The notes under the pieces are model-generated. The model was not told the origin of the DNA and did no database searches. It saw only the letters and a program-made list of their open reading frames with translations. A DNA stretch of 53,017 nucleotides from Acidobacteriota bacterium (GTDB taxonomy: Bacteria > Acidobacteriota > Terriglobia > Terriglobales > Acidobacteriaceae): the NCBI GenBank assembly GCA_021793405.1, contig JAJYSV010000025.1, forward strand, positions 1 through 53,017, in the 5' to 3' direction. Made by a program: the position numbers and the translations under genes. Positions 7,256 to 31,820 of the stretch are shown piece by piece (within the stretch, counting starts at the first letter, position 1; each line of letters starts with the position of its first letter).

Positions 7256-7461
7256 TCGACAGGAAACACATAACGATCCGGCACCGGCATATTTCTCTCA
7301 ATCGGAACCGAGTCGATCCCCAAAGTTTGGACCGGTATTAAGACAGGACAGGGCCGAGCATCCTCTATCGAGCAAATCCGGCATAAGATCGAATCGATAC
7401 CAGGAGAAAGTTTCGCTGCAAAATCTAAGCATTCAAGGGACGAGAGCGCCTAGAAATAGCT

Positions 7462-9777
7462 CTAGAAATCGGTGCTGAGGCGGACGGCAAAGCTTCGCGG
7501 GGGTCCGATCGCGTTGCCGGAAAACAGACCGCCAAAATCAATCACGTTCAAAACATTGGTCAGGTTCTGGCCGTCCGCCTGAAGATTCATATTCACGCGA
7601 CGTGACTGATAAACGGTTGCGCCGGCCGATGCGTTCACTTGAAATGCAGGATAAATCCGACCGCGGCTGAAGTTGATGCGATCCAGGACCTGTTGGCCAT
7701 ACTCCGCGAGCACAGTTGCGGGGTCTCCATCAAACTGGAAGGGAAGCCCCGAGTCGTACTGAATGCCGCCGGCGATCCAGAAGCGAGGTGTGATTTGATA
7801 GCGAACGCGGCTGCGAACGGTGTTGCGCTGGTCCTGCGAATCCGGAAAATGTCCTGACAGTTGCGAAGCGGCAGCACTGGCATTCGAGCCGAGAAAGAGA
7901 CCGCCGGTCACGGGAAACCAGACATTCCCGACAATATAGGAGTAACTCGCAAATCCGGAAAAATGATGCCAATCGGGAAGATCAAGTTTTGCTTCCACGC
8001 CGTAGAGAATTGCTTTCCTAAATGAGATGGGAAAACTGATCGTCGTATTTCGAATCTGATCGTCATCCGCGTAGTTATCCAAAAATCGGCGAAAATAATT
8101 CGTATCCAATCTAAATTTCTGAAAGAAAACCTTGGTCAGGCCCCCTTCGTAGTAGTCTCCCTGGGAGGGCTGAACCGGCAGGCGCAGAAAATTCTGTGGA
8201 TCGATAGACTCCACCTCCGTTGAACTGGAGAGCAGGATGTTCTCGAATGCCGGCGTCTGAAAAACCCGGTCGTATGAGAAGTGCAATACTGAGTCGGTCG
8301 ACCGAAAATAGTGGGAAACCGCAAAACGCGGTTCCACCGCCTGCCGATTCACGAGCAGTTGATAGTGGTCCCATCGCAGGCCGGCGTCGATGGTCCAATG
8401 ATGCAGGCGGATCAAGTCCTGAATGAAAGCTGCCTGCTCCAGATCTGGGCGATTTCCCTTAAAGGCGAAGGTGGAAGGCGTGTCCGGGTCGAACTGGGTT
8501 GAATCTGTGATGATGTATTTGAAATTTTCATTGAGAAAAGTGTTGTCGGACTCGACGCCGGCTTTCCATTCGTTGCGACCGTGATCGATGGTCAGGTTGG
8601 CTTTGAAATATCCTTCGCGAAACCAATTATGCTGAAAGACCTCGATCGGCGTTGACTTGGGGTTGGAATAGAAGTCATTCGCATTGTCGCGAACCATTCC
8701 GCGCACATCGGCTAGGGCATAGGTCGAAAATGTATGCTGGTAAGACGCAATCCCCATCGTTTCCGCATTATCTGCAGTTTGGCGTTGTCCCGCGGCTTGC
8801 TGAACCAACTCGTTCGGAATGTCGTAGCGCGAGAACTCGTGTCGGAGGATGACGCCAAACTGGTCGCCTTGCGCCAAGTTGCGCCGGTAGTGGAGTGAAA
8901 AGTCGCCCAATGTACCTGTATTCGAGTAGTTTTGTGGAACGACCGGGTTCAAGTAGCGCCCAGTCATGTTCCCACTGGCGCTACCGGCGAACGTATTTTT
9001 TCCAGAGACATACTGCCCTCGTGCAAAGGCGCCGGCAGTGTCGAAGCTGCCGCCAGACAGCACGGATTGTCCATGGAAACCAGGCTGTGAGTCCTGGAGC
9101 GTGTTGATCTCGACTACACCGCCCATCTTTCTGCCGTACTCCGCAGGAATGCCGGCGGTGTAGATGCTCATCGACTCGACATCGTTCGCCGCGATCTCGG
9201 GACCGAAGCTGGGTGAGCGGTTATCCGTGAGAGGAATTCCATCGATCACAAATTGCGTCTGATATTCCGAACCGCGTGGATGCAGCACTGCGTTGCCCTC
9301 ATAGAGCCAACCTGGCTGTGAATTCACCAGGTCCTGAATGGAACGGCCGGGGAGCGAGCTGAGCCTGTGTTGAATCTGCTCTGACCCAATTTCATTCACG
9401 GAGCCAGCCTGGTCAGGATCAATCAAGGTATCGGTGGTCTTGACGATGACAGACTGCTTCAACGATGAGAGCTTGAGTTGAATCGAATCATATGTCGGAA
9501 TTGAGGAGCGAATCTCAATAATCTGAGATATTTCTGCGAATCCAGGTTGCCGCAATAGTATGTGGTAGACACCGTATGGCAAGTGCTGCGCCACCACATT
9601 TCCTGCAGAATTGGTAGTCAGAGTGTTCGAATATTGATTGGCCTCACTCACAATGTGGACTGAAGTCTTTACCCCGAGGCCAGACGGATCGGTTACCTTG
9701 AAGCGCAGCTCTCCTTCATTCGCCTGGCTCAACACCGGTATCGCCACAGACAGAAAAAGAATCAGAAGCGTTCTCAT
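7462..9777 (-). CDS. TonB-dependent receptor with carboxypeptidase-regulatory-like N-terminal domain
   Basis: This 771-residue outer-membrane receptor has a signal peptide (MRTLLILFLSVAIPVLSQA), then an Ig-like carboxypeptidase-regulatory domain (about residues 22-105). The plug domain includes LVNSQPGWLYEGNAVLHPRG and QFVIDGIPLTDNRSP, and a long beta-barrel ends in a terminal Phe (RLSTDF), the usual outer-membrane assembly signal. The ATG at 9777 is chosen because it begins the signal peptide; an upstream TTG at 9801 adds only eight residues. Such receptors import large or scarce substrates using TonB energy. The GH92 gene downstream on the same strand suggests glycans but does not prove it. 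Confidence 0.9.
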   Translation of the reverse strand: MRTLLILFLSVAIPVLSQANEGELRFKVTDPSGLGVKTSVHIVSEANQYSNTLTTNSAGNVVAQHLPYGVYHILLRQPGFAEISQIIEIRSSIPTYDSIQLKLSSLKQSVIVKTTDTLIDPDQAGSVNEIGSEQIQHRLSSLPGRSIQDLVNSQPGWLYEGNAVLHPRGSEYQTQFVIDGIPLTDNRSPSFGPEIAANDVESMSIYTAGIPAEYGRKMGGVVEINTLQDSQPGFHGQSVLSGGSFDTAGAFARGQYVSGKNTFAGSASGNMTGRYLNPVVPQNYSNTGTLGDFSLHYRRNLAQGDQFGVILRHEFSRYDIPNELVQQAAGQRQTADNAETMGIASYQHTFSTYALADVRGMVRDNANDFYSNPKSTPIEVFQHNWFREGYFKANLTIDHGRNEWKAGVESDNTFLNENFKYIITDSTQFDPDTPSTFAFKGNRPDLEQAAFIQDLIRLHHWTIDAGLRWDHYQLLVNRQAVEPRFAVSHYFRSTDSVLHFSYDRVFQTPAFENILLSSSTEVESIDPQNFLRLPVQPSQGDYYEGGLTKVFFQKFRLDTNYFRRFLDNYADDDQIRNTTISFPISFRKAILYGVEAKLDLPDWHHFSGFASYSYIVGNVWFPVTGGLFLGSNASAAASQLSGHFPDSQDQRNTVRSRVRYQITPRFWIAGGIQYDSGLPFQFDGDPATVLAEYGQQVLDRINFSRGRIYPAFQVNASAGATVYQSRRVNMNLQADGQNLTNVLNVIDFGGLFSGNAIGPPRSFAVRLSTDF

Positions 9778-10505
9778 AGCGGCCAAAGCCAAGACACACA
9801 ATGGGACTCATGTTCGTTACAGATGTTCAAGTGATCAGCGCCGCTTCTTATTCCAAACAATATGATTCCGATGAAGTGATGACGGGTTAACAGACGAAGA
9901 AGGAGCACATGCTGGTTTTCAGTCGAAACCCGAGAAAAATCGATTATCTCATTGGACGCACATCTGAATTGTTGGACGGATTCAAGATTTAGGAATGACA
10001 TGATGCGATTGGGGAGATGCTGCCGTGCGTTTACTAACTATGCTCTGCGGCCCCAGCGAAAGACATGGAGGAAAGTTCCTGGATGAATCGCCCCTTGAAC
10101 GAGTCTCATTGTGACGATAGCATCCAGCGCGCCACATGGGTCGCTGCTTGACAGCGAAGGAAGAACTTCATTCCAGCCATCCTCCAGCATCGAAGAAGGT
10201 TTCGACGAACTGTTTGTGTCCGGTCCCGCAATACGGCAGGTCGACATGGTTCCGGATGAGATTTTCATCCGCCAAAAATGGCCGCACTTGTTTTTTAGAT
10301 GTCCGGCAATCTTGTTTTTCAGGTTGGTTATTGGCGTAGTTCGCCGAAAGCATGAACTCGTCGGGAGTAGTGATCTGTCCAGTTTTCCAATTCGTTATGC
10401 ACAGATACCTGTGATACTACCGATTCAACGATGGCTGCTGACTATGTCGAAGTTGCTTAGATTAATCTTTCCAGGGCGTCGGACCGTTCTATTGGTTCTG
10501 GTGAA
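9778..10505. other. Gap without a confident gene
   Basis: About 730 bp separate the receptor from the DUF2934 gene. Only short frames with no recognisable domain or ribosome-binding site cross it, on both strands (for example 10111-10581 plus, and 10038-10268 and 10168-10353 minus). It should contain the receptor promoter, but no clear -35/-10 pair was identified. Confidence 0.5.
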
Positions 10506-10745
10506 TCATGTAGGGAACCCGACAACTGTCTGTCTCCGTTGTAGCTCCTGCTCCGCCCGGAGCCAATCCTGCTCGGCATAACCATCCTTGTAGCCGCGTT
10601 GTGCCCACAACTCCTGCGCAAGTTGCGCGATCTCTTCATGGGACGGGCGGTTCATTGCCGCTGCCACAAACGTGTCTTTTTGTCTCGCGTTCTTCCGTGA
10701 CTTCGCGGGTGACTTTGCCTTCTTTGTTGTCTCTTCCATTCGCAT
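10506..10745 (-). CDS. DUF2934 family protein
   Basis: This small 79-residue protein has a Lys/Arg-rich N-terminus (TKKAKSPAKSRKNARQK) followed by the DUF2934 signature EEIAQLAQELWAQRG, YKDGYAEQDW and RAEQELQRR at residues 35-70. DUF2934 proteins are common in Acidobacteriota and Proteobacteria, often in several copies per genome, and their function is unknown. The basic tail suggests nucleic-acid contact, which is inference. An alternative start two codons downstream is possible. Confidence 0.8.
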   Translation of the reverse strand: MRMEETTKKAKSPAKSRKNARQKDTFVAAAMNRPSHEEIAQLAQELWAQRGYKDGYAEQDWLRAEQELQRRQTVVGFPT

Positions 10746-11113
10746 CTCACTTTCTCAATTGGTCTCAAGCGTAGAACTATTTCTTAGATGCGAGATTTGC
10801 CCATGGAGGAAGCTTGCAAACGATGATCTATCCCAGCGGTTCTGAAATGCAGGAGAAAGTGACGCAATCTGCCATAATCGGCCGCGCGGGTCGGCTTAGA
10901 ATCAATGCCAAGCAGCTATGAGCAAGAGAAAGAGTTAGCGAAGGAAGTTGACTGACTTGTGGCATAGCCCATGCCGGACGGGCGTGTTCTATGAGGGCTC
11001 GAAACTCCCAGAGGTGCGGCAAAAGGATAACTGGCACTCAATCAAAAGAGCAGTCTCTCGAGTCGGGTTGTTTTCCGCGGCACATAGGACAACCCGCTGG
11101 CTATAGAGACGAA
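10746..11113. other. Gap downstream of the hydrogenase operon
   Basis: About 370 bp lie between the DUF2934 gene and the last hydrogenase-operon gene. No frame here has both a credible ribosome-binding site and recognisable protein features. The promoter of the DUF2934 gene and the transcription end of the hydrogenase operon must lie here, but neither was identified. Confidence 0.4.
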
Positions 11114-11218
11114 TTACATCGATCTCATGTGCATATAGCGTTTTACGTCAGGCGCAACTACAGCGATCGCGATGATTGCGATCACGCCAATTGCTGAGCA
11201 TACGATCTTCCATGCCAT
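11114..11218 (-). CDS. 34-residue membrane peptide, DUF6893-like
   Basis: This is a tiny gene in the hydrogenase operon. The peptide reads M-A-W-K then a hydrophobic stretch (IVCSAIGVIAIIAIAVVA, residues 5-22), then PDVKRYMHMRSM to the end. A strong GAGGTGA ribosome-binding site lies five bases before the ATG. It follows the maturation protease gene by 21 bp on the same strand. The layout of one membrane helix followed by Pro-Asp, Arg-Tyr and a terminal Met matches what I recall of the DUF6893 small-protein family, found mainly in actinobacteria. That family match is from memory and needs a profile search. It may anchor or assist the hydrogenase at the membrane, which is inference. Confidence 0.7.
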   Translation of the reverse strand: MAWKIVCSAIGVIAIIAIAVVAPDVKRYMHMRSM

Positions 11219-11239
11219 TGCATCACCTCGTCAATAATT

Positions 11240-11752
11240 TTATACCGTGCACATACCGGAGTTGGCCCGGATCTGCCCAACAACATCCTCTAACATCCGG
11301 ATGGCACGTTCTATCGATGCCTGCACTGTCTCCGACAATCCCATCCTACCTTCCAGTTCATCCCCAAAATCCTTTGGTTCGCAGCCCACTACAACCACAC
11401 GCGCGCGGACAGTGCCCATGGAAAATGCGAGTTGAAGGACTCGCATCGGGTCCATTCCGTGAGGGTTGATCAGGGTTTCTGGAACCGGAGATTCTCCCAT
11501 GCGGCTCAGGTCTGGCTCCAGCGTATACAGCGTTCCTGGCGCTCCGCCGCGTGGCAAAGCATCGACAATCACAACAGCATCCCATGGGTCCAGAAGTGCA
11601 TAGGCGAGATCGAAACCGCGGATGCCATAATCGACGGCTGTAACGCCTTCCGGGAGTGGGCGCATGGCTAGCGCACGCACCGCTTCCACTCCGAAGGCAT
11701 CATCGCCCAGAAAGATATTTCCCACGCCGGCGATCAGGATCGAAGGATTCAT
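11240..11752 (-). CDS. NiFe hydrogenase maturation endopeptidase (HyaD/HycI/HoxM family)
   Basis: This 170-residue protease would remove the C-terminal extension of the hydrogenase large subunit after nickel insertion. The family motif GVGNIFLGDDAFG is at residues 9-21. The three metal-sensing positions of HybD (Glu16, Asp62, His93) correspond to Asp18, Asp64 (VIVDA) and His98 (NPHGMD). The first is conservatively changed from Glu to Asp. The start overlaps the end of the upstream gene by four bases (ATGA), indicating translational coupling. Its substrate is presumably HhyL, encoded four kilobases upstream in the same operon, which still carries a 23-residue tail after its last cysteine motif. 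Confidence 0.92.
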   Translation of the reverse strand: MNPSILIAGVGNIFLGDDAFGVEAVRALAMRPLPEGVTAVDYGIRGFDLAYALLDPWDAVVIVDALPRGGAPGTLYTLEPDLSRMGESPVPETLINPHGMDPMRVLQLAFSMGTVRARVVVVGCEPKDFGDELEGRMGLSETVQASIERAIRMLEDVVGQIRANSGMCTV

Positions 11753-13053
11753 GCTTGTTCCTCGACATTCGCGTCTTCGAGCGGCTCAACTTCTTCCACG
11801 GAGAAGAAGAAGCGGTGGCCCGGCTGCCGCATCATCCCGAACTCGCGACCCGGATCGTCATCCACGACAACCGCCAGTTGAATGTTGTCCTCAAAATCCT
11901 GCTCGATGGCCTCGATCACACCGGTCTTTCCTTCCAGCGCCATGTCCATGATGTCAGCCTGCTTTTGCGGCCACAGGCGAACCCGGCTTCCTACCTTCAA
12001 CTCGCTACCGAAGACGCGGACACTTTCGGGCGCGGATTTTTCCGCCAACGGATTCCAATCTCCGATCGGGAAAGTCTTCGCGCTTGGCTCGCGAGCAGCA
12101 GGACTCCCGGAGACTGTGCGAAGCCCCCGAATCGCGCCATGCACCTTCATCAGGAAATCCTGGGGAAGGGTTTCGGTTCTTTCTAGAATTTTGCGGGCAC
12201 GATCGTCGACATTTCGCATCTCGTCTTTTTCCTCGTCGGTCAATGTCAACACACGCAGCGCCAGCATTTCATCCATCTCCGTACCATCGAAGAAATCACC
12301 CTCGCTTTCCGGCGCAATTTGCGGGTAGTCGTAAAGAATGATCGGCGAACACAGTAGCATCGACCGCTCACTCTCATTCCCGACCAGGACAGGGAATACG
12401 CCAACATTCTGGCAGGCTGCAACATCTGCGCGAAATTCCTCAGGCGGATCCAGCAGGGAGACGAACTCGCCTCCAGTCACGCTCAGGAGTATGTGCGCAG
12501 AGACAAAAGCTCGTAGCATCGCCTTTTGACGGACACATTCGGCGGCATTTTCCACTGGTGTCGTATTTCGTACCTGCAACGATACTTTATGCAGTCCGTT
12601 ACGAACTGGTCCAATCCGAATTTCCACGCTCCCAGAGATATCGTGCGACGGAGAGCAGTTGATGACGGAATCTGTAACCGTGTCAGTTGCCTGAAATGAA
12701 AAGGGGTGTCTGAGCAGTTCAGATGTGAGCTCTCCTGGCGCCAAATTGCCCAGTTCAACAGACCGCTCGACACCTTCTTCCCATTCCTGCCAAGTGCTGC
12801 CAGCTCGTCGGCGCACCAATTGGAGGAACCGGACGCGAACATCTAACCGCGTCTCCGCATCTGCGATGACTAAGAATTCGGTAAGCAGGAAGAATGACTC
12901 AGCCGGACGCTGCTCCTCGGCATATTCCTGCGGATAGAGAGTGCCAAAGTTCCACCGCTGCGCGTTCTTCGTGGACGTGGCCCGATACGGATACAAGATG
13001 TATCCCTCATACAGGACCGCAGCGGCAATTCGTTCCGCGGTCGCGAAGTTCAT
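11749..13053 (-). CDS. Conserved hydrogenase-operon protein of unknown function
   Basis: This 434-residue protein sits inside the group 1h hydrogenase operon, overlapping both neighbours by four bases. The N-terminus (MNFATAERIAAAVLYEGYILYPYRA) leads into a mixed alpha/beta region without recognised catalytic motifs. The C-terminal 80 residues (VRVFGSELKVGSRVRLWPQ, then GKTGVIEAIEQDFEDNIQLAVVVDDDPG and RQPGHRFFFSVEEVEPL) look like a small beta-barrel of KOW type. I recognise the general sequence from other group 1h hydrogenase loci, where it is a conserved hypothetical. No signal peptide or membrane segment is visible, so it is probably cytoplasmic. A role in assembly or partner recognition is inference. 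Confidence 0.8.
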   Translation of the reverse strand: MNFATAERIAAAVLYEGYILYPYRATSTKNAQRWNFGTLYPQEYAEEQRPAESFFLLTEFLVIADAETRLDVRVRFLQLVRRRAGSTWQEWEEGVERSVELGNLAPGELTSELLRHPFSFQATDTVTDSVINCSPSHDISGSVEIRIGPVRNGLHKVSLQVRNTTPVENAAECVRQKAMLRAFVSAHILLSVTGGEFVSLLDPPEEFRADVAACQNVGVFPVLVGNESERSMLLCSPIILYDYPQIAPESEGDFFDGTEMDEMLALRVLTLTDEEKDEMRNVDDRARKILERTETLPQDFLMKVHGAIRGLRTVSGSPAAREPSAKTFPIGDWNPLAEKSAPESVRVFGSELKVGSRVRLWPQKQADIMDMALEGKTGVIEAIEQDFEDNIQLAVVVDDDPGREFGMMRQPGHRFFFSVEEVEPLEDANVEEQA

Positions 13054-30941: not shown

Positions 30942-30995
30942 AGTGGCCTGCTCGCAATCACTCCTATTTATCACTTAAATATTATCAATGACTAG

Positions 30996-31018
30996 ATTGG
31001 CGGAGGGAGAGGGATTCG
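30996..31018. repeat. Direct repeat of tRNA-Ser 3' end, copy A (att-like)
   Basis: These 23 bases are identical to 31729-31751, which cover the 3' terminal acceptor and T-arm portion of the intact tRNA-Ser gene plus two flanking bases. The separation is 733 bp. Such duplications arise when an integrase recombines an element into a tRNA 3' end. A further 12-base match to the tRNA anticodon arm (31777-31788) occurs at 31095-31106. No integrase gene is present between the copies. Confidence 0.85.
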
Positions 31019-31101
31019 GAAGTCTGGTCCGTATTGAAAACAGGCAACTTACTGTGTTTTCAGTATCGCTACATATGCACAAAACGGCAGATACGCGGTT
31101 T

Positions 31102-31124
31102 TCAAGTACGCTATAAGTACACGA
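31102..31124. repeat. 23-bp imperfect direct repeat, left copy
   Basis: The sequence begins TCAAGTACG and ends GTACACGA. It matches 31684-31706 at 19 of 23 positions. The two copies lie inside the interval bracketed by the tRNA-Ser 3' end duplications, one near each end. Confidence 0.7.
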
Positions 31125-31128
31125 GTTT

Positions 31129-31350
31129 TCAGCGATCCTTTTCCCATTCTTTGATGCCTTCGAGAATCGCCCTCTTCTCTTCGACCTCACTCTCGAATGA
31201 ATAATCTTCAAGCTTACTCAGTAGGAAATCCGCAACTTTTTCGTCGCCGTTATACACGCACAAATGAGCCCCCTTTTCCTCGAAGCGAGTTGCCTCGATC
31301 CGGCGGGGTTTATCTTCGTATTCTTTCTTCACGAGCAGGTATTTCGCCAC
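31129..31350 (-). CDS. Small protein of unknown function
   Basis: This 73-residue soluble, charged protein starts MAKYLLVKKEYEDKPRRIEA and ends in an acidic/basic helical tail (EEKRAILEGIKEWEKDR). A very good AGGAGGAAT ribosome-binding site precedes the ATG. The gene has lower GC than its neighbours and lies inside the interval bounded by the duplicated tRNA-Ser 3' end. No family is recognised. Confidence 0.7.
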   Translation of the reverse strand: MAKYLLVKKEYEDKPRRIEATRFEEKGAHLCVYNGDEKVADFLLSKLEDYSFESEVEEKRAILEGIKEWEKDR

Positions 31351-31393
31351 GATTCCTCCTGGGGATAAGTCTACCTTGCAATACCTCGTAGAA

Positions 31394-31411
31394 ATGCTTT
31401 GATTAAAGCAT
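31394..31411. promoter_or_regulatory. 7-4-7 inverted repeat between two divergent small genes
   Basis: ATGCTTT-GATT-AAAGCAT forms a perfect palindrome in the 98-bp gap between the divergent small genes at 31129-31350 and 31449-31649. It could be an operator controlling either gene. The gap is AT-rich, so chance occurrence is possible. Confidence 0.35.
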
Positions 31412-31448
31412 CTTCGTTCTTTGAAAACTTGGGGTAAATAAAAATATT

Positions 31449-31649
31449 ATGAATGACGCTTTAACGCCGATGCCTTCGGCAAGTTCGGTGGGATACCAAA
31501 GCAACAACACACCTACGAACGTAACCCTGCAAAAGATTGACAACGGATTCATCATCTCGTATTGGGATAATCGTGGCCAACATCAGTTTCACTGCGCAAA
31601 TCTCAGTTTAGTGAAAGATCAACTCGAATCATTGTTCGATAAAAAATAA
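31449..31649 (+). CDS. Small protein of unknown function
   Basis: This 66-residue protein has a Ser/Asn/Thr-rich N-terminal part and a compact C-terminal part (NGFIISYWDNRGQHQFHCAN, then LSLVKDQLESLFDKK). The ribosome-binding site is poor. The gene is AT-richer than the surroundings and divergent from the small gene at 31129-31350, within the tRNA-bracketed interval. No family is recognised. Confidence 0.55.
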   Translation: MNDALTPMPSASSVGYQSNNTPTNVTLQKIDNGFIISYWDNRGQHQFHCANLSLVKDQLESLFDKK

Positions 31650-31683
31650 ATCTAATCGCCCCACGTTTTCAGGAATTGCGAAC

Positions 31684-31706
31684 TCAAGTACGTATTAGGT
31701 ACACGA
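31684..31706. repeat. 23-bp imperfect direct repeat, right copy
   Basis: Partner of 31102-31124, identical at 19 of 23 positions. It lies about 25 bp from the tRNA-Ser 3' end. An octamer GTTTTCAG occurs just before it (31665-31672) and also near the other end of the interval at 31056 and 31125. Confidence 0.7.
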
Positions 31707-31728
31707 ATCCCGTAAGTCATTGATAAAT

Positions 31729-31751
31729 ATTGGCGGAGGGAGAGGGATTCG
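31729..31751. repeat. Direct repeat of tRNA-Ser 3' end, copy B (within the tRNA gene)
   Basis: This is the copy of the 23-base repeat that forms the 3' end of the intact tRNA-Ser gene. It is identical to 30996-31018, and the two copies bracket two small genes. Confidence 0.85.
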
Positions 31752-31820
31752 AACCCCCGTTACCCTTGCGGGTAAAGCGGTTTTCAAGACCGCCTGTTTC
31801 AACCACTCACACATCCCTCC
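31731..31820 (-). tRNA. tRNA-Ser (UGA anticodon)
   Basis: The minus strand folds as a class II tRNA. The acceptor stem GGAGGGA pairs with TCCCTCC, followed by discriminator G and an encoded CCA. The anticodon loop CTTGAAA carries TGA, the variable arm is long (TTTACCCGCAAGGGTAA), and the T-loop reads TTCGAAT. The long variable arm and the anticodon identify it as serine. Its 3' end is duplicated at 30996-31018. Confidence 0.96.

Follow-up and report, generated by a model that had tools for sequence, protein, structure and literature searches.

The window analysed here, the whole 53,017-nt stretch of contig JAJYSV010000025.1 (GCA_021793405.1; coordinates on the forward strand), derives from a soil-type Acidobacterium whose genome, assembled in 137 contigs, is referred to as G000. 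A single tRNA gene is found in the window by ARAGORN, a tRNA-Ser(UGA) located on the minus strand, so that its 3′ end faces left, and the exact 23-base copy of this end that had been proposed from a sequence-only reading of the window is confirmed at 30996-31018 by a repeat search and ARAGORN. The two copies are 733 bp apart start to start, with 710 bp in between, and the locus is organised as follows:

30996-31018, plus strand: distal copy of the tRNA-Ser 3′ end, attL-like; exact 23-bp direct repeat
31019-31123, plus strand: conserved family left end (nhmmer model from five left ends)
31034-31063, plus strand: inverted octamers TGAAAACA...TGTTTTCA within the left end (by reading; kept in G818 and G654)
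31056-31063, plus strand: GTTTTCAG octamer (motif count)
31102-31124, plus strand: left arm-type repeat TCAAGTACGCTATAAGTACACGA (repeat and arm-pattern searches)
31125-31132, plus strand: GTTTTCAG octamer (motif count)
31129-31350, minus strand: cargo gene 1, 73 aa (ORF; GTG start, AGGAGG upstream)
31358-31437, no strand: middle region between both genes (blastn patches and side-by-side sequences)
31394-31411, no strand: palindrome ATGCTTTGATTAAAGCAT between the two genes (by reading)
31449-31649, plus strand: cargo gene 2, 66 aa, orphan (ORF)
31644-31672, plus strand: right-end segment, 90% identical to G818, containing GTTTTCAG at 31665-31672 (blastn)
31684-31706, plus strand: right arm-type repeat TCAAGTACGTATTAGGTACACGA (repeat search; 31686-31707 identical to G818 at 22/22 positions)
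31712-31723, plus strand: GTAAGTCATTGA junction adjoining the tRNA 3′ end (single site in G000)
31729-31751, plus strand: tRNA-proximal core copy, attR-like, inside the tRNA 3′ end; exact 23-bp repeat
31731-31820, minus strand: tRNA-Ser(UGA), the target gene (ARAGORN)

By sequence, the element is flanked by attL- and attR-like repeats with arms, and the tRNA 3′-end repeat is accompanied by a target gene that is left whole, as in tRNA-targeting integrative elements. The unit and its tRNA-Ser(UGA) are each present once in G000, and the repeat is not a common genomic motif, a possibility that had been raised against its significance: the 20-bp core occurs at three sites in G000 (≤1 mismatch), namely the pair belonging to the unit and another tRNA-Ser. 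A perfect 12-bp inverted repeat (TTATCAATGACT / AGTCATTGATAA) is found at 30982-30993 and 31715-31726, directly left of each core copy, that is, once outside and once inside the element.

The second pair of 23-bp repeats noted earlier, as well as the octamers near the two ends, also proved to be real. The arm-type repeats at 31102-31124 and 31684-31706 are 83% identical, and the best 23-nt direct repeat within the 710-bp interval (19/23) was reached by none of 200 shuffles; GTTTTCAG occurs three times between the core copies, a count reached by 0 of 1000 dinucleotide shuffles (mean 0.018), and six times over the whole window against a shuffled mean of 1.75. The enclosed DNA is AT-richer than its surroundings, as had been observed, with a GC content of 0.430 for 31019-31728 that is undercut by just 4 of the 52,308 710-bp windows; the lowest of these (0.428) starts at 31020, and the mean across windows is 0.555. 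A second low-GC patch is present at 9201-10610 (710-bp windows starting at 9201-9901, GC 0.48-0.50). The description of two divergent small genes with a palindrome between them and no integrase holds as well: both ORFs and ATGCTTTGATTAAAGCAT are present, and a six-frame phmmer search of the window with 15 queries (14 tyrosine integrases and one serine recombinase start) returned no recombinase-like frame at E 0.001.

The tRNA-Ser locus and its junction

In the closest relative (G009), two contigs are syntenic with the window, one up to position 30954 and the other starting from 32048, and both depart from it past these points. At ≤1 mismatch the G009 assembly contains no tRNA-Ser(UGA) end, and with the two flanks on separate contigs an empty site was not seen. 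As far as the assembly can be read, the closest relative is without the arrangement at these flanks, which is not the vertically inherited, common arrangement that would have spoken against an inserted element. In the congeners G001-G004 and G007, other genes lie beside nuoN, and the tRNA-Ser(UGA) is found on another contig. The 3′ ends of tRNA-Ser genes are integration hot spots in these bacteria: tyrosine integrases (Pfam) adjoin the tRNA-Ser 3′ end in G007, G072, G032 and G015, and in G000 itself at tRNA-Ser(CGA). Among 37 tRNA records examined ahead of the search for related elements (32 distinct; 1 to 31,730 bases downstream), the tRNA-Ser(UGA) of G000 is the only one whose 3′ 20 bases recur in the DNA examined.

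The right junction of the G000 unit (GTAAGTCATTGATAAAT) is without the palindrome of G654, G247 and G276 and resembles ordinary phage junctions. Window positions 31706-31759 are 83% identical (blastn) to phage ST64B, the integrase gene of which lies ~90 bp from the match, and positions 31713-31759 are 87% identical to phage SerU-LTIIb; the junctions of these two phages are GTAAGTGCTTGA and ATAAGTCATTGA, respectively. The pattern GTAAGTCATTG-N4-20-GGCGGAG is found in 5 of 300 related genomes (reversed control, 0), in four of them at an ARAGORN tRNA-Ser and in the fifth, G166, at a core-like copy without a called tRNA, and the GTAAGTCATTG junction is found in 17 stretches of viral contigs, four of which adjoin a called tRNA-Ser. 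The occurrence of GTAAGTCATTG and of phage-like junctions at tRNA-Ser ends supports a true attachment half-site at this position and does not define a family; as a family mark GTAAGTCATTG was rejected, since it is general at the tRNA-Ser ends of many elements. In the viral contigs L155, L159, L160, L161 and L166, GTAAGTCATTG lies beside GGCGGA-type repeat runs at which ARAGORN calls no tRNA.

Related elements at tRNA and tmRNA genes

Relatives of the unit were sought by means of its arm repeat, with one genome per species in all cross-genome comparisons. At ≤2 mismatches the repeat was found in 11 of 300 related genomes, compared with 28 for the reversed control, and because the number of matches was not above this control the step rested on adjacency to RNA genes. 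Five of the 11 sites outside G000 are at RNA-gene ends or copies of such ends (two in G276 and one each in G262, G247 and G008), and six of the 13 two-mismatch sites (G166, G222, G224, G232, G081 and G135) were dropped for having no adjoining tRNA end, with tRNA ends only being considered. The arm consensus RRGTACGYWWYARGTACACG, built from the RNA-gene-associated sites, is present in 6 of 399 genomes of the class (reversed control, 0). Four of these six had been used to build it; G654 at a tmRNA and G818 at a tRNA-Ser were newly found, and each contains an exact 21-bp core copy. The resulting prevalence is a floor, derived from pattern searches rather than from a profile. The members are as follows (repeat length and spacing in bp):

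G000, complete: tRNA-Ser(UGA); repeat 23, spacing 733
G818, complete: tRNA-Ser(UGA); repeat 21, spacing 862
G654, complete: tmRNA; repeat 21, spacing 923
G276, complete: tRNA-Phe; repeat 24, spacing 1550
G262, partial: right end at tRNA-Lys; 17 kb searched without finding a core copy
G247, partial: right end at a gene sharing 3′ bases with the G654 tmRNA; cut by the contig start
G008 (congener), partial: left end beside a copy of a G654-type tmRNA end; cut by the contig end

All four complete elements are of low GC. An assembly artefact or a chance duplication of the tRNA end, which the 137-contig assembly of G000 and the break of flank synteny with G009 at this point might suggest, is highly improbable, given that G818, G654 and G276 show this anatomy again, within contigs of 6.8 Mb, 3.2 Mb and 53 kb, respectively.

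In the left core copies of G000, G818, G654, G008 and G276, identity to the RNA gene stops in the T-arm region and is followed by TCG/GA. Over the 105 positions of the left end, pairwise identity is 66-78% among four members (70-74% for G000 against G654, G008 and G818) and 51-59% against G276. In leave-one-out searches, with each row taken in turn out of a single shared alignment and E values scaled to 4.6 Mb, four of the five left ends were recovered at E 3e-18 to 4.5e-21 (4.5e-21 for G000), the match of G276 was weak (E 0.08) and reversed loci gave no match. Independent matches to the left-end model were obtained in G013 (E 6e-8, the best, among 20 loci chosen solely for their tRNA-Ser core content), G166 (E 9e-5) and G072 (E 0.03). 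Nine of 52 core sites lie outside an ARAGORN tRNA and four of these nine have a left-end match, two of them (the window and G818) having trained the model and two (G013 and G072) not.

The right end is common to G000 and G818 (31644-31672 and 31686-31707). Palindromes at the right end differ in strength between members: G654, G247 and G276 have pronounced ones and G818 a weak one, and G000 and G262 have none. As a consequence of this uneven distribution they are not called a family feature. At the right ends of loci L186, L201 and L183, arm-core palindromes with different letters and similar size are observed (TGTCCGCTA-AGTA-TAGCGGACA, TTCCATTA-AATA-TAATGGAA and CCTAATCA-TC-TGATTAGG, respectively), which suggests a kept hairpin.

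Two other loci are of interest for their layout. In L143 (G166:C349), region 7458-7609 holds a core copy at which no tRNA is called; the GTAAGTCATTG junction borders it on one side and a family-like left end (E 9e-5) on the opposite side, an arrangement reminiscent of two elements in tandem. In L057 (G002:C83), at 1427-1639, a tRNA-Ser with anticodon UGA, perhaps a replaced tRNA, is preceded at a distance of ~105 bp by an 18-bp sequence nearly identical to the tRNA-Ser(UGA) end typical of the genus, and this near-copy is followed by a stretch that resembles, by eye, a degenerate left end.

Cargo genes and the shared middle region

Between these ends the members carry different genes. The cargo of G000 encodes 73 aa (minus strand) and 66 aa (plus strand), and that of G654, arranged alike, 139 aa (minus) and 62 aa (plus); the second slot of G818 holds a 92-aa ORF (plus), and G276 carries a 211-aa ORF (plus) together with a YopX-like gene (minus; Pfam 6e-15, phrog_98 5e-24). 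No pair of cargo proteins from different members shows homology at E <0.05, and the same cargo was not seen in two members. A middle region is common to G000 (31358-31437), G818 and G654 and contains TGGGGATAA, CTTGCAAT and TGCTTTR, in that order, with TCGTTCTTTGAAAACTTGGGG being present in G000 and G818; it is supported by blastn matches between G000 and G818 (E 5e-6 and 0.03) and between G654 and G818 (E 0.001). No match to it was seen in G276, and in G818 and G654 the counterpart of the G000 palindrome ATGCTTTGATTAAAGCAT is not palindromic. This region may drive expression. In G818 the shared middle region lies within an 81-aa minus-strand ORF, which is for this reason probably not a gene and was rejected as such; the first slot of G818 is thus uncertain, its more likely occupant being a plus-strand ORF of 53-60 aa.

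The 73-aa protein is predicted to adopt a small beta-barrel with a C-terminal helix (AlphaFold mean pLDDT 85) and the 66-aa protein a beta-beta-beta-alpha arrangement (pLDDT ~85 in residues 31-60). Fold searches with the two proteins gave no match at E ≤0.001, and matches to an Hfq-like fold were too weak to use; Pfam, PHROGs and NCBIfam yielded matches solely at E >0.01, and PADLOC nothing at 0.1. Relatives of the 73-aa protein are found in G009 and G166 only among 199 other genomes, and none in 395 other genomes of the phylum sample. Since those in G009 and G166 lie outside such elements as far as seen, the 73-aa gene is no family marker. The 66-aa protein has no relative in 199 other genomes, viral contigs, genome contigs or phages.

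The YopX-like phage gene of the G276 element, as well as the similarity of the G000 junction to the tRNA-Ser attachment regions of ST64B (83%) and SerU-LTIIb (87%), which is mostly due to the tRNA end, would be compatible with a phage satellite, the left end of which would be a packaging or helper-recognition site, with a helper phage supplying integrase and capsid. Such an identity is unlikely, however, as arm-pattern searches of IMG/VR gave 0, 1 and 0 stretches, the 11 viral stretches with the left-end pattern reach at best E 0.19 by the left-end model, and neither of the two G000 cargo proteins has a match in the phage collection. The single viral arm-pattern match (L205), which falls in coding sequence of a phage and has no called tRNA, was dropped as a chance occurrence.

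Source of the recombinase and comparison with known systems

A recombinase was found in none of the four complete members, and integration or transfer genes are absent from them by these searches, as in CIMEs; nor was an integrase of its own, of the kind carried by phage satellites, found in the unit. No Pfam recombinase is present among the cargo ORFs scanned, and phmmer detects no recombinase-like frame in L183, L201, L202, L259 and L260 or in the 15-19-kb loci around G818, G654 and G276. Neither in these loci nor in the 53-kb window was a recombinase frame found that would point to an adjacent integrated element for mobilisation in cis.

Recombinase genes are found elsewhere, in G013 and on other contigs of G000. 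In G013 (L218 / L237; G013:C50, reverse complement) the family left end opens an element of >10 kb and is followed by HD-domain dGTPase-like and VirD4/TraD-like genes (NCBIfam 2e-11 each, below curated cut-offs). After ~9.9 kb the contig ends in a serine recombinase gene (Pfam Resolvase 4e-19) of which only the start is present; with the sequence stopping there, that this gene belongs to the left-end element is unproven. The 352,807 bases covered of the G000 mobile-element contigs include a 579-aa large serine recombinase at 9886-11625 on the minus strand of L258 (G000:C3; Pfam Resolvase 1e-31, plus Recombinase), which is a possible candidate helper and is not claimed as the helper, its likeness to the G013 recombinase being distant (E 7e-8). 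At L118 (G000:C58:14000-27519), positions 9953-12640, tRNA-Ser(CGA) has a tyrosine integrase gene on either side (Pfam Phage_integrase in both cases): the first ends immediately ahead of the tRNA, and the second begins ~125 bp beyond its 3′ end. As for the class of enzyme, the arm-core anatomy and the phage-like junction would favour a tyrosine integrase, and the linked G013 gene a serine recombinase.

Mobilisation by a resident tyrosine integrase of G000, for example that at tRNA-Ser(CGA) on contig C58, appears quite unlikely. The C58 integrase (Pfam) and the tRNA-Ser(UGA) integrase of G032 share 32% identity over 403 aa (E 1e-62), and the tRNA-Ser(UGA) junction of G032 shares GTAAGTCATTGA with the 733-bp element; the C58 enzyme, however, has its own attachment region with different repeats, as judged by eye, and the family arm pattern is absent from G000 outside the 733-bp element.

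The reading that we favour, with a probability of roughly 0.6, is that the 733-bp unit is a non-autonomous integrative mini-element, one of an Acidobacteria family residing at tRNA and tmRNA 3′ ends and moved in trans. A recombinase encoded elsewhere would recombine an attP, in which the tRNA 3′ end is present as a copy, with the T-arm end of tRNA-Ser(UGA), and this integration would keep the tRNA whole and leave the 23-bp repeat at the far side. In the family, the conserved left end and the arm repeats flanking the unit on either side would enclose two slots of exchangeable cargo, with the shared middle between them, and the ends would serve as recombinase sites; members are found at the ends of tRNA-Ser, tRNA-Phe, tRNA-Lys and tmRNA genes. 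No helper was found, the arm pattern occurring in G000 solely inside the 733-bp unit, which counts against this reading. The original suggestion of attL and attR sites bounding a minimal element mobilised in trans has in this respect gained support, since in other genomes these ends enclose other cargo at several RNA genes, and none of the four complete members yielded a recombinase. We also entertain, at slightly less than even odds, a broader proposal in which an integrase-less family of 0.7-1.6 kb spreads among Acidobacteria tRNA and tmRNA genes, its conserved end being served in trans and its cargo being swapped like cassettes in two slots around the shared middle. Small forms may spread as such, a point against which is that no cargo was seen twice.

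The deletion scar that the sequence-only reading had offered as an alternative would require that larger, integrase-bearing elements lost their middles independently in each lineage, leaving CIMEs as remnants that are immobile or depend on a neighbour for movement. Decay of this type is documented, CIMEs that keep attL and attR being a known product in the text available of PMC5704250 and PMC3146451, and the first cargo slot of G818 may be degenerate. Furthermore, a decay model too predicts a large relative such as that in G013, a >10-kb element that shares the left end and has a VirD4/TraD-like gene along with a serine recombinase start, and it is the existence of this element that leaves the deletion scar only weakened. 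On the other hand, all four complete members are 0.7-1.6 kb long with both ends kept, and no recombinase fragment was detected in them or in the flanks examined. A common middle between two slots of unrelated cargo, as seen in G000, G818 and G654, would not result from independent deletion, and decay is considered somewhat unlikely.

With CIMEs, which in the available text of PMC5704250 retain attL and attR and lack integration and transfer genes, and with the 15 ssrA islands without an integration module described for Dehalococcoides in that of PMC3146451, the mini-elements share the presence of attL and attR at an RNA gene and the lack of recombinase or transfer genes. They differ from CIMEs in their length of 0.7-1.6 kb, in a 105-bp end conserved across genera, in the middle shared by three members and in their several targets, and no integrase element was found in the flanks examined; the 733-bp unit may function in the manner of a CIME or a satellite, although nothing resembling a helper element was detected next to it. 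The likeness to phage satellites (P4-like, PICI, PICMI) consists of small size, site-specific insertion, presumed helper dependence and one phage-type cargo gene. In contrast to the mini-elements, phage satellites need satellite-encoded integrases for excision according to the portion available of PMC10803314, and PICMI115, with 6,110 bp the smallest satellite with characterised activity named there, is about eight times the length of the 733-bp unit, in which no integrase was found. If the small form does spread, a site-specific element would be reducible to an attachment site and two small genes, at a length ~8x shorter than this smallest characterised satellite. No terms for integrase-less elements were found in the available text of a review of mobilizable elements (PMC11389934), and a literature search, with most subscription papers outside it, gave no description of such an Acidobacteria family among the matches listed.

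Searches anchored on integrases would, if it is the small form that spreads, miss elements of this kind, and the 105-bp end combined with an arm repeat at RNA-gene 3′ ends provides a handle with which to count them, to find their helper and to gather small orphan genes carried by mobile DNA. Tycheposons, like the mini-elements, target tRNA genes and carry variable cargo. MITEs, which belong to DDE transposases, are similarly short and enzyme-less, with conserved ends and presumed mobilisation in trans, whereas the mini-elements target RNA-gene 3′ ends site-specifically and carry genes. Should the cassette-like proposal be true, the family would represent a counterpart, based on site-specific recombination, of MITEs or integron cassettes.
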